Positions 4,690 through 51,960 of a DNA stretch of 64,000 nucleotides are shown piece after piece (position 1 is the first letter of the stretch; the number at the start of each line of letters is the position of its first letter). The position numbers were made by a program, and so were the translations under genes. The stretch lies in assembly GCA_948144175.1 (NCBI GenBank), contig CANXME010002062.1:372001-436000 (forward strand), written 5' to 3'. This stretch comes from Closterium sp. NIES-65 (Eukaryota; Streptophyta; Zygnematophyceae; Desmidiales; Closteriaceae). The notes beneath the pieces are model-generated. The model was not told the DNA's origin, searched no databases, and saw only the letters and a list, made by a program, of their open reading frames with translations.

Positions 4690-7600
4690 CTCAGTTGAAA
4701 ACTGATACTGAAGCGGCATCTTTGAGCGCAGGACCTAGGGATAACATATTCGACGTACCCTACGATCCTATAAGCGATACCATCTACGGATACTCGGAGC
4801 AGCAGCAACCACTAGTACTCGAGGTGATCTGCAACGGGCGTCGCCTCCAGGCCCTGGTGGACAGTGGTGCGTCCCACTCGGTGTGCGACCGCGGGACGTT
4901 GGAGAAAATTGGAGAATCCTAAGAAGAAACCCAGTTTACAGCAACGATGGTGGACGGTACGAAGCTTCCCATCCACGGAAAGTCAACACTGCAGCTGCAG
5001 ATAGGGGCGTTGAGGTGGAAGCCGACGTTGCCGATCACGAATATCAAGGGATTAGATTTCATCTTGGGGCAAGATTTTCTGAAGCTGTTCAACCCCAAGA
5101 TCGACTGGGTCAACCGGAAAACGTGCATCTACAACAACGGGAAACGAGTGGAGCTGCGAAGCTTGACGGATACAGGGAGCGTTCTTGAAACGACACTGGC
5201 ACGGTTCGAACGGACAGTGAACGAGAGTAACACGGGTTACTTAGCACTGGTTATAGCAGCAGCAAAGGAGGAGGTCTTGGAGCAGTACAAGGATATAATG
5301 CCCGACGACCTACCCACAGGCGTATCTCCAGCACGCACCCACGAGCACGAGATCGTGGAGGAACCAGGTGCGAAACCCGTCTCACGTGCACCAAACCGAC
5401 TGAGTCCGACTGAACTGACAGACATGAAAAAACAGATAGAGTATCTATTGGACAGACAACTGATCCGCCCATCCACCTCTCCCTACGGCGCACCAGTCCA
5501 AAACCAGACGGCAGTCTACGGATGTGCATCGACTACCGCGCACTGAACAAACAGACATTCAAAAACAAATATCCCATACCGCGCATAGACAACCTACTCG
5601 ATCAACTGCGTGGAGCAACAGTATTTTCGAAACTGGACCTACGATCGGGCTAGTGGCAGATCAAGATGGCAGACAACTCCGTCCACAAGACAGCGTTCCG
5701 TACCAGATACGGCTCCTACGAATACTTGGTGATGCCGTTCGGACTCTGCAACGCACCAGCAACGTTTCAGGCGGAGATGAATCACATCTTACGACCCCTG
5801 CTAGACGAGTGCGTGGTGGTGTACCTGGACGACATTCTCATCTACTCCAAGAACATGAAGGAGCACGTGGAGCATCTGCGGAAGGTGTTCGAGATCCTGC
5901 GGAAAAACAAGTTCTACGTGAAGCTGTCAAAGAGCGACTTCGCCCTGAAGAAGGTGCAGTTTCTCGGGCACATGGTGAGTGCCGAGGGCGTACATGTGGA
6001 CCCACGGAAGATCAAAGCCGTCAAGAAGTGGAAAGTACCAGAGAACGTGAAGGAGTTACAGCAGTTCCTAGGCTTCGCCAACTACTACAACAGGTTCGTG
6101 CCGCAGTACGCTAAGATAGCAGCGCCACTAACCGACCTACTGAAAAAGGATACGCCCTACAAATGGGATACCCTTCATCAGCAAGCCATGGAGCAGCTAC
6201 AGACAGCAGTGACTACAGTGCCAGTACTCATCTTGCCGGACCGAGACAAGGACTACGTGGTGGAAGCAGACGCTAGTGACCAAGCAGTCGGAGCAACTCT
6301 GATGCAGGATCACGGACGCGGTTTGCAGCCCATCGCCTACCTCAGTAAGAAGCTACACGGAGCAGAAATAAACTACCCCATTCACGACAAGGAAGCCTTA
6401 GCGATAGTCATAGCCTTCAAGGCGTGGAGGTGTTACCTAGAGGGAGCCAAGACTACAGTCTATACTGACCACTGCAGTCTCAAATACCTGAAGTCACAGC
6501 CGACACTCTCACGACGTCAGGTGCGGTGGGTGGACTTCCTGGAAACTCACTTCCACTACGACATCGTCTACAAGCCTGGGCTACACAACAAGGCAGACGC
6601 GTTGAGCCGCCCCGGACATGTAGCAGGCATCCAGCTCAATGGGATGAACCCTCTGCTCTAGGGTCTATTCCAACATGGGTACTCCGTGGACGCAGAGATT
6701 GCTACAGCACAGACCAAGAAGCTGTTACAGTGGGAGAAAGACTTAGCTGTAAGGAAGGGTTCAGGAAAGATTTGGGTACCGAATTACGCCCCGCTACGGC
6801 AGATCCTATTGGAGGAGTTTCACGACGTACCTTACGCGGGACATTTCGGGAGCAACAAGACGTTAGCTGGGATAGCGAAGTATTACTACTGGCCCGGGAT
6901 GGCAACAGACGTGCAGCAGTTCGTCACCTCTTGCGACACGTGCCAGCGGATGAAGAGCAGCAAGCAGTAAAAAGCAGGGTTACTTCAACCTCTACCCGTA
7001 CCGGAGCAGCCATGGCAGGTTGTTAGCCTCGACTTCATCACAGGGCTTCCTTCGACCTCACGGGGACATGATTCCATCCTCGTGGTGATCGATAAGTTCT
7101 CCAAAATGGGTCACTTCATACCGACCAACGCCACAGCTACAGCTGAAGCAACTGCTCGACTCTTCTTCGACCGCATCATCACCATCCACGGCATCCCCGC
7201 TACACTCATCTCAGACAGAGACCCCAAATTCACGAGTAAGTTCTGGAAGGAGCTCATGGGACTGTTGGGGACAAAGCTTGCAATGTCTTCAGCATACCAC
7301 CCCTAGACTGACGGACAGACAGAGCGACTCAATCAAGTGGTTGAACAGTTACTGCGCACAGCTTGCAAGGACGACGTCAGCCACTGGGACACACAGTTAC
7401 CAACCCTAGAGTTCGCTTACAACAACGCATCACATGCGGCCACAGGGAAAACTCCTTTCTTCCTGTGTTACGGACGGGAACCACTCACACCACAGCAGCC
7501 AACTACACCGGCACACGTCCAAGCCGCACATGACTTCGTCACCACCATGCAGCAGCTATGGGAGAAGACTCAGCGACGTCTCACCACGATGCAGAACTCC

Positions 7601-10869: not shown

Positions 10870-11780
10870 GTCGACTCAGGTGCTGCTAGGGTGCTGCGTC
10901 TGAGGGTGTAGGGCCTGCGCATGCGGAGCCTGGGGGTGCTGAGATTGGAGCTGCTGAGTTTGGGGGTGCTGAGCCTGGGGGTGCTGAGCCTGAGGGTGCG
11001 GAGCCTGGGGGTACTGCGTCTGGGGGTGCTGAGCCTGGAGGTGATGTGTCTGCTGGAGGTCCTTCGGGTGCCTCATCACAGCGCGAGCCTCTCTCTCCAC
11101 TGCAGCTGCGTGAGTGGTTTGCTCGGCGCTGGAGTGGCGCTGCTGGAGCTGGGGGGCCTGCCGCTGGAGACACTACCGCTAGAGGCCCTGGAGCAGGAGG
11201 CACTGGAGCTGCTTGTCTTGGAGGCGCTGGAGGTGCTGCAGGTACTAGAGGTGCTGGCGCTTATCCTGCCGGAGCTGTCGGTACTACGTCTGGGGGTGCT
11301 GAGCCAGAGGGTGCTACGTCTGGGGGTGCTGAGCCTAGGGGTACTGCCTCGGCTGGAGGTACTCCGGGTGCCTCGTCCCGGCGGGAGCCTCTCTCACCAC
11401 AGCAGCTTTGCGAGTGATTTGCTCAGCGCACCCGCCTTCGGAGTGGTGCTGCTGGAGCTGCTGGTTCTGGAGGTGCTCGTACTAGAGGTACTGGAGCTGC
11501 CGGAGCTGGTGGTGGTACTGCTGCTGGAAGTGAAGGAGCTGCTGGTCCCGGAGGTGCTCGTTATGGAGGTACTGGAGCTGCTGGAGCTGGTGGTGCTGGA
11601 GGTGTTGGAGCTGCTGGAGCTGCTGGAGGTACTGGAGGTGCTGGAGGTGCTGGAGGTGCTGGAGGTGCTGGAGTTGCTGGAGCTACTGGATCTGCTAGAG
11701 TTGCTGGTCCCGGAGTTGCTGGTACTGGAGCTGGTGTTGCTGGAGGCGCTGGAGCTCTCGGTGCTGGTGCTGGAGACGCT
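10870..11780 (+). repeat. copia B low-complexity linker repeats
   Basis: Imperfect tandem repeats. The first block reads GAEPGGAEPGG-like, then comes SSQREPLSPLQLREWFARRWSG, a second block, the signature again (SSRREPLSPQQL), and a long GAGGAGGAG block of GCTGGAGGTACTGGAG-type units. The LSPQQLREWFARRW motif echoes the gag signature LTPQQLREWYARR, as if part of gag had been duplicated into the linker. Confidence 0.7.
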
Positions 11781-14225
11781 GTGCGGCCGCGACCGTACTT
11801 TGTTCCCCTTATTCGCCAGGTTCTTGGTCTCCAGCCTTCTACTGACCTTACTCCACCACTACTGTGTCCACCACCTAACCAGTCACAGCCACGGTTACAG
11901 CCCGCCTCCCCACTGCCTGCTCCTTCTCCTTACACTGAGCAGACAGACTCCCTTACAGAGCGTCGTGTGCCTGCGTCTCGTCCTGCCTCGCCTGTTCGTG
12001 CTGCTCGCACTATTCGTCGTGTCCCGCGTCCGCGTCCTCCCCCTGTGCCCAGCACTCACACTCCTAGTGTCACACGTCTTCTAGCCACTGTTCTCACCGA
12101 CCATTCGTTTGAGTCCACTGCTGCATCTGCCCTAGTTGCTGAGCTTGTCGACTTTGCTGCTGCGTGTCGTCTAGACTACGCCACTAGTCTTGTTGCTGAG
12201 TCTCAGTTTGTCTGTCCTCTATCCGTAGGGGGTGAGTGTGCTCTTGGCACGGACGTCCTTGAGAACAGGCAAGAGGACTTTGAGTGACTTGCAGCTGCTG
12301 TACCTCATCTCGTGTCCATGCTGATTGCACCTGAGGGAGACCCGGATGCCCCAGACATCCCGACCCCGCGCTCCTTTGAGGAGGCGATTACGGGTCCCTA
12401 CTCCTCTCAATGGCTGATAGCCATGGACGCAGAGATGGCATTCTGGAAGTCCACAGGCACTTACGTCAACGAAGGTTCCCCCTCCTAGGGAGAACATAGT
12501 CGATGGCATGTGGTTTTTCAGGGTGAAGCGGCCGCCAAGTTCTCCGCCTGCGTTCAAGGCTCCTTTCGTTGCTAGAGGCTTTAGTTTGCGACAAGGAGTT
12601 GACTTCTTCCAGACCTTCTCCCCTACCCTGAAGATGACCACTCTTTGGGTGCTGCTGCACGTCGAAGCTCAGCATGCCTACGAGCTTCACTCTCTTGATT
12701 TCAACACATCTTTCTTACAGGGCACTCTGCACGAGGAGATCTGGCTGCGCCGCCCACCTAGCTTCACTGGGTCGTTTTTTGCAAGTACCCTAGTGGAGCC
12801 TTCGGCGGCCAGTCTACCGTCTCCGCCAGGCGCCTCTTGAGTGGAGCGATACACTAAGAACGACAGTTGCGGCTCTTGGGTTTGCTCCTTCGACTGCTGA
12901 CCCGTCTCCTTCAACTGCTGATTCGTCGCTGTTCCCGCGCACCGACACTTCGCTGCCGTCGTTCTACATCCTCGTGTACGTCGACGAACTGATCTTTGCC
13001 ACTGCTGTTACTGATTCACTGACTCTAGTAAAGTCAGAGCTGCAGAAGGGACATACATGCATAGACCTGGGTGAGCTGCGCAGCTATCTTGGCTTGGAGA
13101 TCACCCGGGACAGAGCACGCCGCACCATCACCCTAACTCAGTCACACATGGTGCAGCAGGTCCTTCGGCGCTTCGGCTTCCGGTACTCCTCGCCCCAGTC
13201 CACTCCTCTGCCTACTGGTCACTCGCTCTCAGCTCCACCTTCGGATGAGTCCATAGAGCCGAATGGCTCGTATCCAGAGCTTGTGGGCTGCGTCATGTAC
13301 CTGATGACCTGCACTCGACCTAACCTTGCTTAGCCTCTCAGCATCCTGGCAAGCTAACGTTGCGCCCGGGAGACACAGTTGAGAGCACTAGGAGGCCGCT
13401 AAGAGGGTGTTACGCTACTTGTGCAGTACGTCGGGCATGGGGCTCGTGCTTGGAGGAAGGAACAAGTTGTTCTCACTGGCCACGCCAACGCGTCTTGGGT
13501 TGACGACTTGGCTACACAGTGGTCGTCACAAGGCTACACTTTCAGCCTTGGCTCCGGTTCTGTTTCTTGGCGGTCTACCCGCTTGTCTTCTATTCTTAGT
13601 TCCAGTTGTGAGGCTGAGATCTACGTAGGGGCCATGGCTGCACAGGAGTTACGCTGGCTCACCTACCTGGTGACCGACTTGGGAGAGCGGCCTAGTTCTC
13701 CTCCTAGTTCTGTACGTAGACAACTAGGCCATGATTGCCTTGTGTCACAAGCACAGACTGGAGCACAGGACAAAGCACATAGCTCTGCGTGACTTCCTTG
13801 CTTAAGAGTTGCAGCAGCGTGGTCAGCTTTGTCTTGCTTACATGGCCTCTCAGGCCAACACTGCTGATACACCTAATGGGATGGGCACCCTGAGACTTCG
13901 GGACTGTTAGAATACACCCGGGAGATTTTCCGTCTGAGAAAATCCACACTTAGTGCTCCGAGACAGGGAGCTCATCGGCATAACAGAGTTGCAGCTGCGG
14001 TAACCTCGCAAAGGGTACGCAAAACTCTACCCTCTTAAATCTTTCGGACTACCCTTGTATTCAATCCTGATCACGGAGAAGTACCCCTGCGTAGTTAAGA
14101 TAGCAGCGATTAAAATACCGCGGACTAGGTGTATCTTCACCAAGGCACTTCAGTCTTGTGATCATCAGCGGTTCTGTATCGTTTTAGGCCTTGTGCCTAT
14201 TTGGCCTCACTTGCTCACTTCTTTA
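11781..14225 (+). pseudogene. copia B RT-RNase H (degenerate)
   Basis: Begins RPRPYFVPLIRQVLG, then SALVAELVDFAAACRLDY and RT motifs. The active site reads YVDE: the second Asp is Glu (codon 12986-12988). Stops or frameshifts occur at about 12285, 12486, 12838 and 13331. The RNase H part (EAEIYVGAMAAQELRW) is broken by frameshifts and by the TA-flanked insertion at 13870-14131. The C-terminal IFTKALQ box resumes after it, and even the usual stop codon is changed. Confidence 0.87.
13870..14131. mobile_element. 262-bp TA-flanked DNA element (MITE candidate)
   Basis: Interrupts the RNase H codons GCTGATATCTTCACC of copia B. The insert begins CACCTAAT and ends with the complement ACTAGGTG (short terminal inverted repeats, one mismatch in eight). 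The host dinucleotide TA is present on both sides (13868-13869 and 14132-14133). Other copies of this copia family are contiguous here. It holds no ORF of note and has an internal hairpin GATTTTC/GAAAATC near 13930. A TA duplication fits Tc1/mariner-type non-autonomous elements; the family cannot be named from one copy. Confidence 0.7.
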
Positions 14226-14465
14226 CTTTGCTTAAACTGTGATCTATATACTTATACCTGCATGCTTAACCTGCATGCTTACACTTGCTAGGTTTTGATC
14301 ACTGTATTGCTTGTTCTCAATATATAACTCTGCATGTGAACTGGCCTTGTGGCCATTTGCTTGTGCTCAGAGTGTGCGGTGACTTCATGATCCACCCCGA
14401 GCTTGCTTTGCTTTGCTTGACTGGTCTTGTGACCCCTTGTCTCCCCCACTTTGCCTATGGGGGTG

Positions 14466-14596
14466 TGTCAAACTTATATGTTGCATGTTGTGTAGGCTGT
14501 AGTGGGGTAGCCTATATGGGGTACAACCCAATTAGGGTTAGTACTTGTACCCATCCTGCTACTAGTTCATCCGTTCCTGCTCATGAGATTCTGACA
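14466..14596 (+). repeat. 3' LTR of copia B
   Basis: 131 bp, TGTCAAACTTATATG to GAGATTCTGACA, preceded by the polypurine tract CCTATGGGGG. A reversed partial copy of its end recurs at 36149-36212. Confidence 0.82.
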
Positions 14597-42489: not shown

Positions 42490-43339
42490 GACCCGCCAGT
42501 GAAATAAGCCCTTTTATCCCAATGGTTAGTGGCTGGGATTCTGACAGTACTCGATGAGGATGGGGTGGTTTTCAATTCTGTCCAGGGGAACCCAGTTGTC
42601 TTCAGTGGGTGTGCGGGCTGCCCGCGGATCACGAACTCGATGGCTCAAGATTTTCTCGGGCATAATGATTGCCTCTGTTGGCGGTCGTGTCATGCTGGTT
42701 GGGCGGTTGCGAGGGAGTGGCTGGTGGATGGCACGTATGGGCAAAGCAGGCTGACGTGGAAGGACGGGCTGACTTACCAGTCAGCAGGGAGGAGGAGGTG
42801 GGCGGTGACGGGTGTGATCATGTGGCTGATGCGAAATGGCCCGCAATATTGGGGGCGGGGTTTTGGGGTGATGGGCAGGCGGAGGTTTTGAGTGTCGAGT
42901 AGTACGAGATCGTCGGGCTGGTAAGTGACAGGTCGGCGGTGGCGGTCGGCGTTGCGCTTAGCGATGATGTTTGATTTTTTTTTTTTATTGCGTCTGCTGC
43001 TCGGGTCTATGCTGCTTGTAAAATTTATGCGAACTGTTGCGTGCCTGGCACCGAGTTGTCTTGATTTGGAGTCATGGGTACTGTGGGGTCTTTTCCGTAG
43101 TTTAGGTAAAACGGTGACTGTTGGGTCGTGGCGGATGGCGAGTTATTGTACGCGAACTCGATGAGTGGTAGTGGCTGTTCTCAGGTGGTCGGGCCGTTGC
43201 ACGTGGCTCGGATGAGTTGCTCCATGGTCCGATTTGTTCGTTCTGTCTGTCCGTCGGTCTTAGGGTGGTTCGAAGAAGCTAAATTGTAGTCGCGTGCCGA
43301 ACTGCGGCCACAGGTTCCGCCAGAAGTTGCTGGTGAATT
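42490..43339 (-). pseudogene. K2 integrase C-terminus and chromodomain
   Basis: Minus: FWRNLWPQFGTRL-like, FEPPKTDGQTERTNRTMEQLIRATC (broken frame), then LPITPKPRPQYCGPFRISHMITPVTAHLLLPADW, and the tail IIMPEKILSHRVRD, TEDNWVPLDRIENHPILIEYCQ, a chromodomain-like end. The upstream half continues at 51585 on the other side of element L. Confidence 0.8.
43335..43339. other. target-site duplication of element L (left)
   Basis: GAATT here and TAATT at 51585-51589. The K2 integrase reads GACACGAAATTCACC across the site when the insert is ignored. Confidence 0.6.
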
Positions 43340-43586
43340 GTCGGAACCTCCCCACCTCCCTGCTGCTTGTTCTGTCAGACTCCAGTCCTTGCTGCTCTCT
43401 CCTCCCTTATCTCCTCGGACTGGACTCGTTGGATCTCACCCCTTTGGCTCCCCCCCCTTTACCAGGAACCTCTCTTGCCCTCGTCAGTCTTACTGATTAT
43501 CCTCCTGGTGTGACCTCTGCATGCAGACTCTCTTCCCCTCTCCCTCTTCTCTGGTACTGCTTTTGGTACTGAACTCACCCTTGCCC
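43340..43586 (-). repeat. extra terminal segment A1 outside the 3' LTR of L
   Basis: 247 bp matching A2 at 44272-44518 (for example CACCTCCCTGCTGCTTGTTCTG and TGGATCTCACCCCTTTGGC). A2 is the normal end of the L interior; A1 lies between the LTR and the target duplication. Confidence 0.82.
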
Positions 43587-44268
43587 GATAAGCCCTTGGC
43601 TCCTTCACATAACACACTCTGCGAATCGCTTTATTCCATCCTAGCTTGCAATATCTCCTTTTCCTCACTACTTGCTTGAGTAGGTGCAAGAATATCGTGT
43701 TCAAAGGAAACATACAAGCATTGAGAATAGCTACCACAAGGTACCTCCTATCTACCAGATCGGCCTCCGCCTCACTCATCCTGCCTACCCTTGCCTGTCC
43801 GCAGAGGCTAATGCGACTTTGGAACAGACTAGCAACCACCCTGCCAACTGCCTCTTCTGCCCGCCTCCTGCTTCTTTCCCTCCAGCTGCCACAGTGCCGT
43901 TCCAGCTGGCTCCTTGGAGCACACCTGCACACATACGAAAGCAAACACACATGCATGCGAGCACCCATCCGAGCTGATGTGGTAACCTGCTGGCCTTGCC
44001 GCTGCCAAGCGCTAGTAGTTTCAACCCTTGCCCTCCTCCTACTTATGTAAGTCCCGCCCTGTTTGCTCCCCATGCCTTTCCCCAACCATTCGCTTCGGCA
44101 GACGTCACCCTCCCGCGCACCCACTTGTCTCCCCGCAAACCTCAATCGTCACCTTGACCCTTCGCATCCCATCCTCGGCACTGCCCTCCTCGCTATATAC
44201 AGTATATACAATTTGTACACTTCCCGATCTCTCCTCACTATCCCACTCACATTCACATAAATGTGACA
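43587..44268 (-). repeat. 3' LTR of element L
   Basis: 682 bp; on minus TGTCACATTTATGTG to GGGCTTATC. Contains GTATATACAG/TATATACAATTTG (44200-44215), a possible promoter block in both LTRs. Confidence 0.88.
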
Positions 44269-44506
44269 GCTGTCGGGACCTCCCCACCTCCCTGCTGCTT
44301 GTTCTGACAGACTCCAGTCCTCGCTGCTCTCTCCTCCCTTATCTCCCCAGACTGGACTCGTTGGATCTCACCCCTTTGGCTCCCCCCCCTTTACCAGGAA
44401 CCTCTCTTGCCCTCGTCAGTCTTACTGATTGTCCTCCTGGTGTGGCCTCCGCCTGCAGACTCTCTTCCCCTCCCCCTCTTCTCTGGTACTGCTTCTGGTA
44501 CTGAAC

Positions 44507-46530
44507 TCACCCTTGCCCCCTCCTAGGACCAGCTGCCGCCGTCCTCGCCCTGGTCATGGGACCAGAGTACTGCTGCACTCCCTTCGCTTTCCCGGCCAAG
44601 GCCACATTAGTCACGTGGTCCATCACCCGCTTCCCATTCTCTCCCTCTAGCACCAGTACCCCTGAGTCTCGCACCTCCTTCACTGTCCACCTCTGCTGCG
44701 ACACTCCTAGGTCCAGCCCATCCCGCTTTGCTCGCCTGACATACACTTCTCCTCCCTCCTCCACAGCCGGGTCTCGGCCTTGCATCCTTGCCAGCTGCCG
44801 CTGCTTGTAGCGGTGAATGTCTCGCAGCTGCGCCACCTTCAAGCTCTCTAGCGCGGCAGGCAGCATCTTCCTGAGGTACACCGCGCACGCATCCGCCAGT
44901 GCCACTCACTTCTCTGCTGTTCCTGCCGACACGCTGTCCGTGAGCACTTTGGGAGCTCCCACCGGCAGAATCGGATGCTTCCCAAAGAGCAAATAGTAGG
45001 GAGAGACATCCTTGAGCACTGCTTGCTTGCTAAACCTGTCATTACCCACGCCAGCTTCTTGTCCCAGTCCCCCTTATGTGCCTTCCCATATACCCGCAGG
45101 CCTCTCTTCATTGTCTGCACCAGCCTCTCTGTCAGTCCGTCGGCCTACGGATGATACCTTGAGGTTGTGCGGTGCTGAATCCCGTTGGACACCAACAGCT
45201 CCTTGAACTCTCCCTCAAACTCCGCCCCTTGATCTGTGAGCACCTCCCCGCATGCCCCGAACCGTGTGATCACCATTTCCTCAAATGCTTCTGCCACTAC
45301 TGCTGCTGACTTGTTCACCAAAGGTCGTGCTTCCGCCCATTTGCTTACGTGCTCAATCATGAGCACTATATACTTCCTCCCCCTCCTTGACACTGGCAGC
45401 TCCCCTGCAATGTCCAAGGACCAACGATACCCGAGCTCCACTATAGCCAATGGCTGCAGCTCCGCCTGGCTCCTCAGCAGCGTGGCCTTGTTCCTGCAGC
45501 ACAGCTCACACTTCTCTACCCACTCCTTCACTTCTTTCCTCATTCTCGCCCACCACCACCCCGTCTGCAGCAGCTGGATCGTGCGCAGCGGTCCGTAGTG
45601 GCCAAGCTTCTCGTGCACTTCCTTGATTATAGCCTCTCGTGCTGCTGGCTCCGGTACTCGCTTCCACCCATCCTTGGTCTGCAGCTGTACCTGCCCTTGG
45701 TACCACCTGTAGTGTTGCCCCCTAGCCCTCGCCCTGGTGTCAAGTCGACCATCCTCTGCTGTCTCTCCCTTGATCCATGCCAGCGTCGCTGCGTCCTGCC
45801 ACACATCTGCCGCTCCTTTCTCCTGCTCCCCACCTGCCCCCTTTTCCTTGACCATGACAGTCAGCGCTGCCACCGGCTGCCCCCTTGCTGTGTCTCCGTT
45901 CTCTCCGTCCTCCTGCTCCCTTGGTGGGTTTCTTGAGAGCCCATCCACGTGCTGCATGGTTCGGCCCCGGCGGTTCTTCACTGTGAAATCGTATTCCTGT
46001 AATTTCATCGCCCATCGTGCGTTCCGCTCTGTGAGAGTCTGGTTCTGCATCAGGCACAGCAAGGGCTGGTGATCCGTCACCAGAGTAAAGTGCCTTCCCT
46101 GTAGGTACACTCGAAAGTGTCCCACTGCCCAAACTGCCGCTAGCCCCTCTCCCTCATATGACGAGTAGTTGGCCTCCGCCGGATTACAGGTTCTGCTCGC
46201 GAATGCGACTACCTTCTCCTGTCCTTCTTCCAGCTAGCTCAGCACCGCCCCCATGCCTACGCTTCTCCAATCCGTGTGGAGCATGAAAGGCGCCTTCCCG
46301 TTCGGCAGCTTCAGTACGGCCCCGCTCTTCACCGCCTCCATCAACCCCTTCAAGGCCTCTTCTTGTGGCTCCTCCCACTGCCACTTCTGATCTTCTCATA
46401 GTAGCTTGTTCAGTGGTGCCGCGCGCTTGCTGAAGTCGGGAATGAACTTTCTGTAGTAGTTCAGGAATCCCAAAAGTGCTCGTAGCCCGCTCCTGTCCCT
46501 TGGTCGCCCCACCCTGTCCAACACCTCCAC
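44507..46530 (-). pseudogene. L RNase H and integrase
   Basis: After RT comes LRALLGFLNYYRKFIPDFSKRAAPL, then RNase H parts (HTDWRSVGMGAVLS, YEGEGLAAVWAVGHFRVYL, LVTDHQPLLCLM, VDGLSRNP). Integrase has an HHCC zinc region (HEKLGHYGPLRTIQLL..CELC), SLDIAGELPVS, LTDQGAEFEGEF and, after a TAG at 45145-45147 (YHP-stop-ADGLTERL), the catalytic-Glu segment. The C terminus ends at 44507. Other stops lie near 46250 and 46400, and frame changes near 44900-45000. DDE residues are readable. Confidence 0.85.
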
Positions 46531-46531
46531 C

Positions 46532-47269
46532 TTAGCCCAACTCCCCTCCTGCCACCTCAAACCCCAGGTAAGCCACGCTGCTGTGTCCGAAACGGCACTT
46601 GCCCGGATGGCATGTTAGTCCCGCTGCTTGAATGGCCGTCAGTGTCGCCTCTATGTCCTCCACGTGTCTTTCGCTGTCCGGGCTAAAGATGATGACATCA
46701 TCTATGTAACAGGCAGCTCCCTTAACCTCTCTTAGCACGGTGTCCATTACCCGTTGGAAGACTACTGAAGTGTTGCGCAGGCCGAACGGCATATAGTTCC
46801 ACTCGTACAGGCCGTGTGGTCCATGGAATGCCGTCTTTCGTTTATCCTCCTCTGCTATAGGGATTTGGTTAGAACCCTGCCGCAAATCCAGCGTAGAGAA
46901 CACCCAGCTTCCGTGCAGCTGATCGAAAATTTCCTCTGCCATGGGCATATGGTAGCGGTCGCTAGCTGTCACTTTGTTTAGGCCCATGTAGTCCCCGCAC
47001 ATTCTCCTTGACAGCACTACTCATGTCAGATCTGTCCTGGCGGCTAATACTGTGGCAGCTGCATAGTCTGAGGAAGAGCGGCGGATCAGTCCGGTCGCCA
47101 ATAGCTCCTGGCATTTCGCAGTGCAGACCTCAATGTCCTGTGGGCTCATCCTCCGCCGTCTCTGATACACTGGCACCTTGCTGGTCAGAGGCAGGTTCAT
47201 GGTACTCATCGTGCACTTCCCCAGCTCCTGCAGAGTGTGTGCGAACGCCGCTGCGTGCTTACGCAGCAC
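46532..47269 (-). pseudogene. L reverse transcriptase
   Basis: MNLPLTSKVPVYQRRRRMSP, LLATGLIRRSSSDYAA, then a TGA at 47019-47021, then CGDYMGLNKVTASDRYHMP, FSTLDLRQGSNQIPI, KTAFHGPHGLYEWNYMPFGL, CYIDDVIIFSPD (active site YIDD), GKCRFG..VAYLGFEV. Same frame on both sides of the stop. The region 47270-47442 between the methyltransferase ORF and RT is acidic and in a shifted frame. Confidence 0.88.
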
Positions 47270-47442
47270 TGCTTCCAGCCGAATTGCTGCAGTTCCTTGC
47301 AGGGCAGCGCCTATGTTCCATTGGTGTCCGGCTCTCCTGCTGCCACTTGTCCTTCCGTGCCCTCGGCGACCTGTGGTGCTGGCTGTCCCTCATCCTCTAC
47401 CTTCCTTTGCGCTTCGCTCTCCCCTCCTTCTCCAGCGTCTCC

Positions 47443-49842
47443 TCACCGCTCTTCTCCGCCGTCGCTCCTCAGCGCCATGTACGCTCTCCTTGGGCCCAGG
47501 AATACTTCGTCAGGGTCAGGGATCCATGCGTCCGTTGGATCCTCTCTCTCTTCACTGTCCCAATCCATTTCAGGCTCCCCCCCTTCTTCCACATCCTCCT
47601 CCTCCTCATCCTGGTCAGGGTATCTCCCGGGTGCTTCATCCCTTTCCGCGTAGCTTCCCGTCCTCCTCTCCACCGGTACCCCCTTTTGACGTTCTTCCCG
47701 TGCTTCCTCCTCTAGCAGTTTTAGGAACCGCTCCGCTTCCCACTGCTTTCGGTCATCCCGCTCTGTCCTTGGGTTTACTCTCGCTGCATGATCTCTCCTC
47801 CTCTCCAGCCGCTTTTTCTCTAGGTGCCTCTGTAGGACTCCCACTAGCCAGTGTAACGCGTTCAGATCCATCGCATTCCCCAGTGCCCTCTTTCTCTGCT
47901 GCTCCGTCACGTCTCCACTCGCCGTGGCTCCTGCCATGAATCCCATTGCCACCTCTCGTTCCAATGCTGTAGGCTCTTCCCATATTCCCTTCAGGCTGTC
48001 GTACACCATCCCTAGGCCTTCTCTAGCACCTTTCATCTTGAACCCCTTCGCCTGGTCGTGTGCCACCAGGGTGGGCCATGCTTGCCGTGGCTTGCCCACC
48101 GCGTTGCATGGGTACTGCATCTCGTGGTCAGGATATCTCACGGGAGCTGGGACTCTTGCAGGCTCGAGTATGTCCTGCACCAGGCGGGCATGCGGCCGCT
48201 CCATCATAGACAGCTCGTATAGGACGGCTGCCTCCGGTATCACGATCTGCCAATACCTGCGAGGTCTGTGCGCCCTGCTGCCGTTCTGCGCCGCGTCCCA
48301 AGCCACTCCTGCCCCCAACTCTGCACGAATTTCTTCCTCTGCTCTCTTCACCGCCTCTCTCCCGTCATCCCGGGTGTCCACATTCTCCACTATGTATGCT
48401 ACCTCCCCTTGCTTCCTCTTGATCATCTTCAACACTCGCACCAGCTCGTGGAACAGCCCACTCCTCGGATCCTCAAACCCCATTCCTTCTCCTGCTCGTG
48501 ATAAGCCATGACACTCCCATCCTGCGACTACCAGATCTACGTGCCCCCAGTGGGCCAGCGCGTCTTCCTTCACATCTTCTACCCTGTGACACACCCATTC
48601 CGCCCCCCTTTCCACTGCGCCTGCATACAACTGCGAGGGGTAACGCTCTTCCAGTTTCTTAATGTGGTGCCAAGCCATGCAGTTCACCGCCTCATCATTT
48701 TCCACGTAGATATACTTCTCCACCCTCAGCCCTGCCTTCAGCACTGCGGCCAGCCCCGTGCAAATACCCGCGAACAACTCCAGCAACACTATAGGCTTGT
48801 GGAACACCCCCGCATCCAGGTGCAGCTCCCTCAGTCTACCACTCTCACCCCAACGCTGTCGGTGCCAATCTCGCTGCCTTCGTTCCTCATCCAATCTTTC
48901 CCAACTGAGAATCCCCAATTCTTCCTCCACAGTCCTGATCTCCGCCTGGTATGCCTCTCGTGGTTCTCGGCGGATGAATCTGACGGGCAGTTCTGCCACT
49001 GGCTGATTCTTCTCCCAGTACACGACTCGGTACGTGAGTTTCTCCTTCCACATGCATATGGTAGCACCGATGCAGTAGAGGAATTTCACACCCAGCAACA
49101 GATTGTAGTCTTCCGAGGGTGAGATTCCACACTGTAGCTTGACTGAAGACTCCTCTGGGCTTCCCTGCCGTATGTATATCTCAACCGTGCTCCTGGTCTT
49201 CGGCATCCACTTGGTGCCTCCTCCCTCTGCTGTCATCAGCAGCAGGCCTTCTTCTATCTGTCGCTCCAGCCGATCTAGCTGCAAGTGCTGCGCAAATCTC
49301 TTTCCGATCAGCACCGGGTGAGCCCCGGTGTCTATGATAGCCTGTTTCACTGCTACTCCTCCCACCGTTATATATCCCTTCTCTGCCACCAGCACAGACG
49401 CAGCGCAGCTGAGCCTCTCCAGTGGGTGGCGGCGCGGCGGGTGCAAGTCTTCTTCCTCTGCTGCTGCCCGGCGCCTCGGTCCCTCTTCCCTCCTTCCCTC
49501 CGTCCGTGGCCTCAGATTTCTCTCCTGCGTCCTCAGCCCCAACTCTTCGCGGTCCCTCGCAGGCCATGCCATCAGGCAGAAGTCCTCTTCGCTACTCTCC
49601 TCTTCTTCCCTCCTGGCCACCATTGCCGGTTTCTTCTCCTCCCCCGACTCTCGCCCCTCCAACTGAGCTCTCAGCCTCTCGATTTCTGCCCGCATCTCCG
49701 CCACTTCGCTCCTGTCACGGCTGTCTCCCCTCCCTTCTCCCCTCTTCGAATTGCACTCCCTTTCCGCGTGCCCCCGTCGCTCGCACTTCCCGCACACCGG
49801 CGCTTCGGGGCAGTCGCGCCTCTGATGATCCCTCTTGTCCAC
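47443..49842 (-). CDS. L pol N-part: zinc knuckle, protease and C5-cytosine DNA methyltransferase
   Basis: 799 codons without a stop, the longest frame in the window. Residues 17-30: knuckle CGKCERRGHAEREC. About 45-65: charged coiled-coil-like. Protease IIDTGAHPVLIG with Asp171. About 350-675: C5-methyltransferase with motif I LLELFAGICTGLA (353-365), motif II YVENDE (379-384), motif IV GWECHGLS with candidate catalytic Cys444, GMGFEDPRSGLF, motif VI VENVD (485-489), motif VIII-like QNGSRAHRPRRYW (519-531), motif X-like RALGNAMDLNAL (652-663). A Glu/Asp-rich tail follows (745-780). The layout recalls DNMT3-type enzymes (inference). Would methylate cytosine using S-adenosylmethionine. The first Met is a frame start only; the native start is the gag ATG. 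Confidence 0.9.
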   Translation of the reverse strand: MDKRDHQRRDCPEAPVCGKCERRGHAERECNSKRGEGRGDSRDRSEVAEMRAEIERLRAQLEGRESGEEKKPAMVARREEEESSEEDFCLMAWPARDREELGLRTQERNLRPRTEGRREEGPRRRAAAEEEDLHPPRRHPLERLSCAASVLVAEKGYITVGGVAVKQAIIDTGAHPVLIGKRFAQHLQLDRLERQIEEGLLLMTAEGGGTKWMPKTRSTVEIYIRQGSPEESSVKLQCGISPSEDYNLLLGVKFLYCIGATICMWKEKLTYRVVYWEKNQPVAELPVRFIRREPREAYQAEIRTVEEELGILSWERLDEERRQRDWHRQRWGESGRLRELHLDAGVFHKPIVLLELFAGICTGLAAVLKAGLRVEKYIYVENDEAVNCMAWHHIKKLEERYPSQLYAGAVERGAEWVCHRVEDVKEDALAHWGHVDLVVAGWECHGLSRAGEGMGFEDPRSGLFHELVRVLKMIKRKQGEVAYIVENVDTRDDGREAVKRAEEEIRAELGAGVAWDAAQNGSRAHRPRRYWQIVIPEAAVLYELSMMERPHARLVQDILEPARVPAPVRYPDHEMQYPCNAVGKPRQAWPTLVAHDQAKGFKMKGAREGLGMVYDSLKGIWEEPTALEREVAMGFMAGATASGDVTEQQRKRALGNAMDLNALHWLVGVLQRHLEKKRLERRRDHAARVNPRTERDDRKQWEAERFLKLLEEEAREERQKGVPVERRTGSYAERDEAPGRYPDQDEEEEDVEEGGEPEMDWDSEEREDPTDAWIPDPDEVFLGPRRAYMALRSDGGEER

Positions 49843-50881
49843 AGATGGAACACGCCGGCGGATTCCTGCAGTCCCGCCTCAAATGTCCCATCTGCCCACG
49901 GTTGTGGCACTTGCGGGTGTCTCCAAGGCCTCTCGGCGGTTGCTCCTTGTCTACTGGAGCCGCGCTCCATGCAGGCCTCCTGTGCTCTGGCGCACGTTCT
50001 GCCGTGCGCTCCACCTCGAACAGCCGCCTCCCGGTCTCCACTCTCTTCGCCGTTTTGTACGCCACGCCCAGCGTTGCCGTCGCCCCCATCTCAAATATCT
50101 TCACCTGTACGTCCCGCTGCAGCTCGTAATTCAGTCCATTCAGAAATTTGCTGACGAGTCTGCCTTGATCCACACAATTCATGTCCTCCGCTAGCTCCAC
50201 CAGTTGCCCGTAGTAAGCCAGCAGTGACTCTCCCGACTTTCGTTTGAGCCCGCGGAATTTGACCACCCGCTCCGGCGTCTGCAGAAGAAACTGTTCTCGC
50301 AGCATCTCCAGGAAGCGCCTCGTGGGGTCCCTTTCCCCAGCCGGCGCATGTGCCGCCCAATCCAACAACTCGCGCCTGCAGATGCGATAATAAGTCTCTG
50401 CTTCTCCCGTCAGGGTATTCGCCAGCCCTCTAAAGAATTCCTCCGCATCCAATCGATCTCACTCCCATCTCGCGCGCAGATTCTCCAGCTGCATCAAGTA
50501 GTTCTTCAGCGAGGGACCGCGCCTGACTTCCCCCGAAAAGCGTTCCGACACCTCCACCTTAGGCAGCATAGTATAACACCAGCGCGTTAATGCCACGTCT
50601 TCCTCAAAGCCTTGCCACGATGCACTTCGGCGATACGGTCTGTCTCTATTCTGGCCAGCTCAGGTTGCCGCCGCTGTTTCTCCGATCGTCAGTCCCTCCC
50701 CTTTCTCCTTTGTTTCCTCCTTTTCTGCGCGGCGCTGCTCTTCGTGCGCTTCTCCTGAGCCCGTGGCTCCGCCCGGCCTCTTTTCGCCCATTCCTTCCGC
50801 GCCTTGCGCGCTCGCTTCCTCCATCTCGCCTTCCTTCTTGAGGTCCTTCACTGCAAAATCTAGCCCTGATCGAGTGGGCAT
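49715..50881 (-). pseudogene. L gag
   Basis: Frame opens MPTRSGLDFAVKDLKKEGEMEE at 50881, about 20 bases inside the LTR. Charged N region, in-frame TGA at 50660-50662, then MLPKVEVSERFSGEVRRGPSLKN, TGA at 50459-50461, then capsid-like DAEEFFRGLANTLTGEAETYY, FLEMLREQFLLQTPERV, LKRKSGESLLAYYGQLVELAEDM, VSKFLNGLNYELQRDV. Knuckle 1 reads CHNRGQMGHLRRDC with the second Cys replaced by Arg. Knuckle 2 begins CSICGQEG and loses frame in a G run, moving into the 49842-47443 frame. Confidence 0.85.
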
Positions 50882-50902
50882 CCAAGCCTGAATGCTTGTA
50901 TG

Positions 50903-51584
50903 TGATAAGCCCTTGGCTCCTTCACATAACACACTCTACGGATCGCTTTATTCCATCCTACCTTGCAATATCTCCTTTTCCTCACTACTTGCTCGAGTAG
51001 GTGCAAGAATATTGTGTTCAAAGGAAACATACAAGCATTGAGGATAGCTACCACAAGGTACCCCCTATCTACCAGATCGGCCTCCGCCTCACTCATCCTG
51101 CCTACCCTTGCCTGTCCGCAGAGGCTAATGCAACTGTGGAACAGAATAGCAACCACCCTGCCAGCTGCCTCTTCTGCCCGCCTCCTGCTTCTTTCCCTCC
51201 AGCTGCCACTGTGTTGTTCTAGCTGGCTCCTTGGAGCACACCTGCACACATACGAAAGCAAACACACATGCATGCGAGCACCCATCTGAGCTGATGTGGT
51301 AACCTGCTGGCCGTGCCACTGCCAAGCGCTGTAGTTTCAACCCTTGCCCTCCTCCCACTTACGTAAGTCCCGCCCTGTTTGCTCCCCATGCCTTTCCCCA
51401 ACCTTTCGCTTCGGCAAACGTCACCCTCCCGCGCACCCACTTGTCTCCCCGCAAACCTCAATCCTCACCTTGACCCTTCGCATCCCATCCTCGGCACTGC
51501 CCTCCTCGCTATATACAGTATATACAATTTGTACACTTCCCGATCTCTTCTCACTATCCCGCTCACATTCACATAAATGTGACA
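50903..51584 (-). repeat. 5' LTR of element L
   Basis: 682 bp, the same length as 43587-44268, few substitutions. The right edge TGTGACA adjoins TAATTTCGTG of K2. Confidence 0.88.
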
Positions 51585-51960
51585 TAATTTCGTGTCGCAA
51601 TCGTTGATAATCGCTGCTGGTATCCCGTGCAGTCGAACGACGGTGGAGATGAAGAGGCGGGCTGTCTCTTCGGCTGTGATTGATTTCTTGCAGGCTGCAA
51701 AATGTGCCATTTTTGTCATCCGATCGACGACAACCAGGATCTCGTCGTTCTCACTTGCTCCAATCGGTAACCCGTGACGAAGTCCATCGTCACCTGCTGC
51801 CAAGCACACTCTGGGGATGGTATTGGCTGCAACTATCCTGTGAGCCGCTTCCGTGATGACACGTGTCGTTGCACGTCGGTCAGCATCTCGGGCCAGAAAT
51901 AATACTGCTGCAGCTGCTGCCGTGTTTTCTCTACTTTGAAATCGCCTGAGGTAACTCCGT
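51585..51960 (-). pseudogene. K2 integrase, N-terminal and core part
   Basis: YYFWPEMLTDVQRHV, then VTMDFVTG in one frame and LPIGASENDEILVVVDRMTKMAHFAACKK, AEETARLFISTVVRLHGIPAAIINDCDTK, where it is cut by element L. Relatives have S/T-DRD at the last Asp box. Confidence 0.8.

Follow-up and report, generated by a model that had tools for sequence, protein, structure and literature searches.

How does a retrotransposon that carries its own cytosine-5 DNA methyltransferase (MT) insert, and why is the enzyme kept? The question is raised by a stretch of 64,000 nucleotides (nt) from Closterium sp. NIES-65 (contig CANXME010002062.1, positions 372,001 to 436,000; hereafter the window), in which a Ty3/Gypsy element, element L, encodes an MT domain between protease (PR) and reverse transcriptase (RT). 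We propose, with a probability of about two in three, that L is a member of a Closterium Gypsy-Dnmt3 family that inserts in a circle-like manner and retains its MT for methylating element DNA. The kind is already known from the charophyte Klebsormidium nitens, where a Dnmt3 lies within the Pol of a Gypsy element, KnitGypsy-Dnmt3 (de Mendoza et al. 2018, PMC5890265; papers cited by PMC number are drawn on here in excerpt). The original prediction had pointed to this report, for charophytes and dinoflagellates, correctly in outline. New, on the papers listed in our searches of open-access literature, are a family from the Zygnematophyceae, to which Closterium, a green alga near the land plants, belongs, its scale and youth, and its integration anatomy; none of the listed papers was seen to report the Closterium family or this anatomy.

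Results

The methyltransferase is a regular part of a large family

We searched the assembly (874 Mb, 2,400 contigs) with the window MT. Of 1,450 candidate places at least 111 were scored, with identities of 52-100%; near-identical contig pairs are included in this count. Such pairs match almost perfectly in locus and flanks (examples are L009/L010 and L029/L030, besides other rows that are identical) and suggest that both haplotypes or duplicated contigs are present in the assembly, and copy counts are therefore inflated. In a search with PF00145, 14 of 123 scored rows lay within open frames of at least 1,900 codons.

We read 26 loci, namely the window and 25 stretches of ~10 kb; 24 are distinct, L010 being a near-duplicate of L009 and L030 of L029. 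Twenty of the 25 stretches were picked by a PF00145 match in a long open frame, so that the MT is present in them by choice, whereas two were picked as RT matches with no listed MT and three as RT matches at ~69-72% identity. The window and all 20 MT-picked loci have the order GAG-PR-MT-RT-integrase (IN), and the MT also lay between PR and RT in 5/5 RT-picked loci (4 distinct). RT matches of at least 79% identity numbered 54; an MT was listed at most 3.5 kb away for 37 of them and for the other 17 none was. Two of these 17 were read (the near-identical L029 and L030) and both have an MT with a frame break; some of the other 15 may have lost it. The three further RT matches at ~69-72% identity also have an MT. 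Each of the four full open reading frames (ORFs) scanned is a single ORF of 2,134-2,321 codons with the complete domain set. The family thus encodes one Gag-PR-MT-RT-RNase H (RH)-IN polyprotein. The nearest proteins come from Closterium sp. NIES-54, -53, -65, -67 and -68 (best 92-96% over 63-78% of the query), and the NIES-65 protein P0012 matches L024-L026 at 98-99% identity in both MT and RT.

The prediction of a Gypsy element that encodes a C5-methyltransferase between its protease and its RT is therefore confirmed, and the search for further genomic copies that had been proposed as a check gave an MT in 26/26 loci read, 20 of them picked for it. The arrangement is family-wide, and the domain is under selection (see below).

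The element ends are split direct repeats

L had been described as having long terminal repeats (LTRs) and the normal Ty3/Gypsy gene order around the MT. The gene order stands, but in place of ordinary LTRs the element has split direct repeats, in the order A1-genes-B1-A2-B2. In element orientation L reads A1, genes, B1, GC, A2, B2 (Table 1). Its TG...CA ends and a target duplication in the 4-6 bp range are those of a canonical LTR element; the arrangement is not, the 5′ end holding A alone and the 3′ end B1-A2-B2.

Table 1. Features of element L in the window (positions are those of the window)
Feature	Position	Strand	Basis
Whole element L, Ty3/Gypsy with split direct repeats, 8,246 bp	43339..51584	-	repeats; ends TGTC...GACA
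Target duplication (4 bp), 5′ copy ATTA (element orientation)	51585..51588	-	3/4 match to ATTC; frame test
Repeat A1, element 5′ end	50904..51584	-	96% to A2
gag, partly open in frame; CCHC zinc knuckle at C-terminal end	49718..50452	-	profile matches below curated cut-offs
Aspartic protease region	49057..49392	-	PF13975 E 1.5e-4 (below curated cut-off) and position
MT domain, Dnmt3 class	47773..48804	-	profile, structure-sequence matches, motifs
Reverse transcriptase	46535..47017	-	PF00078 E 4.1e-28
RNase H end, integrase H2C2 zinc, rve core	45148..46125	-	PF17917; PF17921 5e-17; PF00665 7.8e-13
Polypurine tract AGGAGGGGG at B1	44516..44524	-	GGGGGCA near B1 start, 15/15 copies inspected
Repeat B1	44271..44518	-	95.6% to B2
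B1/A2 junction, palindrome GACA-GC-TGTC (the two element ends meet around a 2-bp GC spacer)	44265..44274	-	exact in 19/26 loci
Repeat A2	43587..44268	-	repeat comparison with A1
Repeat B2, element 3′ end, 248 nt	43339..43586	-	repeat comparison with B1
Target duplication (4 bp), 3′ copy ATTC	43335..43338	-	frame test

Among the 24 distinct loci, 16 had the arrangement A..B-A-B, three had A..B only (L020, L022 and L024), and five had incomplete repeats or none of this type. The full arrangement, A-internal region (int)-B-A-B, is therefore present in 16 of the 19 loci of the first two groups, across diverged subfamilies. In these 19 the 5′ end was TGTC in 18 (TATC in L029) and the 3′ end GACA in all. 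Target duplications of 4 bp were perfect in 17/19 loci, including 15 of the 16 A..B-A-B loci; in a cross-locus control, 0 of 342 pairs were identical over 4 bp. The duplication of the window copy matches at 3/4 bp.

At the B1/A2 junction 19/26 loci have the exact palindrome GACAGCTGTC, against 0.25 expected by chance, and L011 has it with one change. The junction always lies 3′ of pol. A purine tract ending in GGGGGCA was found at the start of B1 or at most ~20 nt away in 15/15 copies inspected. In the same 15 copies no TGG of a tRNA primer site was seen around the end of A1, over a stretch that starts 10 nt ahead of this end and reaches 18 nt beyond it.

The A2/B2 joint behaved differently from the B1/A2 junction. 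It differed in all three split-repeat pairs that are 99.0-99.1% identical (L011/L012, L019/L021 and L025/L026), whereas at the B1/A2 junction the members of each pair have the GC spacer in common; in L012 the A repeat extends 274 nt past the end of A in L011, into internal sequence. Of the copies that read A-int-B and lack A2-B2, L020 and L022 have perfect duplications, and L020 shares 99.6% identity with L019, a copy with split repeats.

MT matches were also found in regular series on one strand, at C995:460522, 467586 and 474650 (7,064 bp apart) and at C382:36104 and 43192 (7,088 bp apart). These spacings are close to one A-int-B unit (~7.2 kb) and possibly reflect head-to-tail arrays derived from a circle or by recombination.

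The methyltransferase is of the Dnmt3 class and is conserved

The domain is a methyltransferase of the Dnmt3 class, and its motif order is unrearranged, unlike that of DRM. The match to DRM was weaker and covered profile positions 3-131 only, and no chain named DNMT1 was among the 53 PDB sequences matched at E <= 1e-3. In L we read the segments ELFAGICTGL, GWECHGLSRAG, YIVENVD, SRAHRPRRYW and LGNAMDLN, which we take to be motifs I, IV, VI, VIII and X, respectively. In an alignment of 22 MT rows, 16 of them Closterium loci, the catalytic Cys and the motif VI Glu are invariant and the motif VIII Arg nearly so. The His that follows the Cys in motif IV of the window copy (WECH) occurs in 0 of the other 15 Closterium loci.

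Nine pairs have an MT dS > 0.05, and their MT dN/dS spans 0.05-0.11 with a median of 0.08, similar to RT (median 0.12) and IN (0.04; 10 pairs each). As the domain is under purifying selection, we lean moderately towards the Closterium MT being catalytically active.

The family is young and its repeats bear a methylation footprint

Repeat pairs within one copy differ by 0.12-3.9% (13 copies), the window copy being the most diverged; in 7 of the 13 the divergence is 0.12-0.8%. The family has been recently active. C/T differences between the repeats of these 13 copies fell on 36 of 724 CG sites (0.050), 19 of 1,059 CHG sites (0.018) and 30 of 3,650 CHH sites (0.008); the remaining differences were 4 transitions with no clear context and 53 transversions. 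The excess over CHH was significant for CG (p 1.3e-12) and for CHG (p 0.009). This is the footprint expected of 5-methylcytosine deamination in CG and, less so, in CHG, and the concentration of C/T differences at these sites indicates that the elements have been methylated.

The window copy is dead and probably lies among older elements

Compared with the 2,154-codon ORF of L023, L has four frame changes and 8 stops within the aligned segments, and its gag frame is broken. It is therefore dead. The copy is fairly old, in a family that is large and was active recently. When the flanks of L (43160-43338 and 51585-51780) are joined minus 4 nt, a single open frame results, in which INDCDT is followed directly by KFTSNFWRNLW. 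The best PDB match of this frame is Ty3 Gag-Pol, a weak one (E 0.0098); a Pfam search of it gave no match, nor did BLASTP against L023. By eye, and by this weak match, the frame reads as an integrase gene; L thus seems to be nested in a Gypsy element that is older and decayed.

Elsewhere in the window, collinear direct repeats (69-83%) at 144-2896 and 11604-14525 flank an RT/RNase H fragment at 5414-6658, and no MT match was found in the element between them. This is probably an older element whose long terminal repeats are of the ordinary kind, unlike the split repeats of L in the same window.

Discussion

A model for integration

The structure of the copies suggests how they could arise. In replication the unit that acts as LTR would probably be B-GC-A, with the polypurine tract at its start and the start of the first strand near its end. 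The linear complementary DNA (cDNA), B-A-int-B-A, would then likely be joined end to end, giving a variable A/B joint. The A2/B2 joint would thus unite the polypurine-tract end (B) with the first-strand start (A) and would be made anew in each cycle, because an inherited joint would be common to near-identical copies. The DDE integrase would then probably process GACA-GC-TGTC inside the LTR and insert A-int-B-A-B with a 4-bp stagger; if each strand of CA-GC-TG were cut behind its CA, the ends would be recessed by 2 nt, as they are in ordinary 3′ processing. From a single-junction molecule A-int-B would result, as in L020 and L022.

We hypothesise that the MT marks the element's own free cDNA; the original prediction had considered this cDNA or the host genome as possible targets. 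The MT might methylate, mainly at CG, the cDNA or its joined form, either ahead of insertion or shortly afterwards, and incoming DNA marked in this way might resemble methylated host DNA; host enzymes could then maintain or extend the mark.

Alternative explanations

Two readings of the element's structure were rejected, as was a third on the origin of its MT. In the window alone, B2-A2-B1 could pass as a tandem LTR remnant, that is, a plain LTR element beside a stray LTR fragment whose extra 248-nt repeat is an artefact of nesting or recombination; the same arrangement in 16/19 loci, with perfect duplications just outside A1 and B2 in 15/16, rules this out and makes it very improbable. Equally improbable is the reading of L as an element of the DIRS/PAT type that relies on a tyrosine recombinase for integration. 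It would account for the A1-B1-A2-B2 repeats, which define PAT elements (PMC4157794), and for an MT domain, as found in the DIRS group. It is ruled out by an rve integrase and by 4-bp duplications, which are absent in the DIRS1 model (PMC3266345); in all four full ORFs scanned, H2C2 and rve are present and no tyrosine recombinase was among the Pfam matches at E <= 0.01. Nothing besides the single window speaks for a one-off insertion of a host MT gene into one element, and with at least 111 scored places, the same site in 26/26 loci and relatives in Klebsormidium we rule it out as having practically no chance of being true.

Several observations weigh against the circle-like insertion that we prefer, and against a role of the MT in methylating element DNA. 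The A-int-B copies could instead come from recombination between B1 and B2, five of the 24 distinct loci (L013, L014, L017, L018 and L031) are without the full repeat set, and L024 has no duplication (1/4 bp match). A symmetric two-junction circle predicts mirrored A-B-A-int-B copies, of which there were none among the loci examined; since the junction is never 5′ of gag, a directional component is missing from the circle model. On the side of the enzyme, the estimates of selection rest on 13 of 190 pairs (20 copies; MT dS 0.02-1.2), and in the four closest pairs (dS <= 0.05) MT dN/dS is 0.21-0.36, on few changes. The catalytic Cys is preceded by Glu in all 16 aligned Closterium loci and by Asp in the Closterium protein P0013, and P0027, a relative outside the 22-row alignment, has no catalytic Cys (WPYQ, with Tyr instead). 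To our knowledge a Pro at this place of motif IV is near-universal in the C5-methyltransferase class, and with Glu in its stead catalysis by the Closterium MT is only putative. When tested in yeast, the K. nitens MT yielded no methylation, a result that its authors call inconclusive (PMC5890265). Finally, the CG/CHG footprint cannot separate methylation by the element from methylation by the host.

Some of these points can be turned into explanations of their own. The role that keeps the MT in the family may be non-catalytic or RNA-directed, such as nucleic acid binding in the particle, the domain no longer methylating DNA. This is the import of the Glu, which P0053 and P0054, two Gypsy-like polyproteins discussed below, have as well, and of the K. 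nitens result in yeast, although the K. nitens protein keeps its Pro; we consider such a role unlikely. Somewhat less unlikely, and still only a tentative possibility, is that the MT is active and its benefit lies in self-limitation or in a host-friendly silencing of new copies rather than in protection of cDNA, or that the footprint is wholly the host's. The excess of CG and CHG transitions after insertion is that of any methylated plant-like transposon, and K. nitens has plant-like methylation with CHH and CHG marks on silent element copies (PMC5890265). Against it stands the recent activity of the family, seen in the low repeat divergence of 7/13 copies; strong conservation of the MT is also easier to reconcile with a function in every cycle than with a cost, without excluding the latter.

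Methylation of the element's own DNA, as we favour, leads to a more general and rather doubtful idea, that DDE-integrase elements of this type insert joined circular cDNA through a buried repeat site and keep an MT to mark or protect the circles. The Gypsy type of Klebsormidium and Closterium and the DIRS group combine a common topology with unrelated MTs, which suggests a use of the MT for free circular cDNA. Ngaro and Viper, which have split repeats and no MT (PMC4157794), and dinoflagellate LINEs with a DNMT (PMC5890265) are counter-examples. If the idea is true, retrotransposon methyltransferases are a property of replication through circular intermediates, and the PAT/DIRS topology has been reached with a different recombinase.

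The end structure poses a mechanistic question in any case, that of a DDE integrase apparently using an attachment site within a repeat for circle-like insertion. Closterium is kept in culture, and with many copies, several of them young and with long open frames, the activity of the family, methylation of its cDNA and its silencing are open to test in the alga.

Comparison with known systems

PAT/DIRS elements resemble the L type in their split direct repeats (PAT), in an internal junction made of fused ends and in having an MT domain (PMC4157794, PMC3266345). They differ in using a tyrosine recombinase, whereas the Closterium elements have a DDE integrase and 4-bp duplications, and their MT is of the adenine type (DAM; PMC6338049). 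SymbioDIRS-Dnmt3 of Symbiodinium is likewise a retrotransposon-borne Dnmt3-class enzyme, and the MTs of two of its copies produced CG methylation in yeast; its order is that of DIRS, and its authors consider it an independent acquisition (PMC5890265).

P0053 and P0054 have the order RT-RNase H-MT-integrase-PHD finger. Their MT is homologous (P0054 is 39% identical to L023 over 327 aa) and their RT and IN are Gypsy-like, but the MT lies between RNase H and integrase and a PHD finger is C-terminal, so the retro-MT domain also occurs in another position. P0042 is a divergent retro-MT-like protein with motif IV FPCQ and a long branch in the MT tree. Viral contigs gave distant MT matches only (26-44%), and among prokaryote genome contigs no relative was found.

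The closest known system is KnitGypsy-Dnmt3. We took the K. nitens protein P0047 (KFL_009030040) as a copy of it, matched to the paper by description and not by the paper's sequences. P0047 and L023 are collinear through PR-MT-RT-RH-IN, with 38% identity in Pol (over 920 aa) and 31% in PR-MT (over 538 aa), and the Closterium family therefore belongs to the KnitGypsy-Dnmt3 kind. In both, a Gypsy Pol holds a Dnmt3-class MT within the polyprotein ORF (frame-broken in the window copy), and in both the MT is under purifying selection, with the dN/dS of 0.05-0.11 in Closterium standing beside a Ka/Ks < 0.2 in K. nitens (PMC5890265). The repeats are also alike, A-int-B-A-B in Closterium and, according to a figure legend, structured like those of a DIRS retrotransposon in K. 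nitens (PMC5890265). The two differ in motif IV, Pro-Cys in P0047 and Glu-Cys in Closterium, and in scale, K. nitens having "fewer copies" than Symbiodinium (PMC5890265) and Closterium at least 111 scored places. The excerpted text of that paper describes no 4-bp duplications, junction or joint variation for K. nitens.

In the MT tree the two fall into separate clades, Closterium (99/100) and the Klebsormidium type (100/99), beside the RT-RH-MT-IN-PHD type (100/98). Four of the five Closterium subfamilies in this tree recur in the RT tree, and within Closterium MT and RT have therefore mostly moved as a unit. Rooting of the RT tree is poor, and the Closterium rows do not all form one group in it; L015 and L028 do not hold together and fall, along with the Klebsormidium and PHD types, at an open fork, where long branches call for caution. 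One acquisition before the split of Klebsormidium and Closterium, or a transfer between them, appears more likely from these comparisons than separate thefts at the same place, and the collinearity with Klebsormidium would argue for a single old acquisition held under selection.

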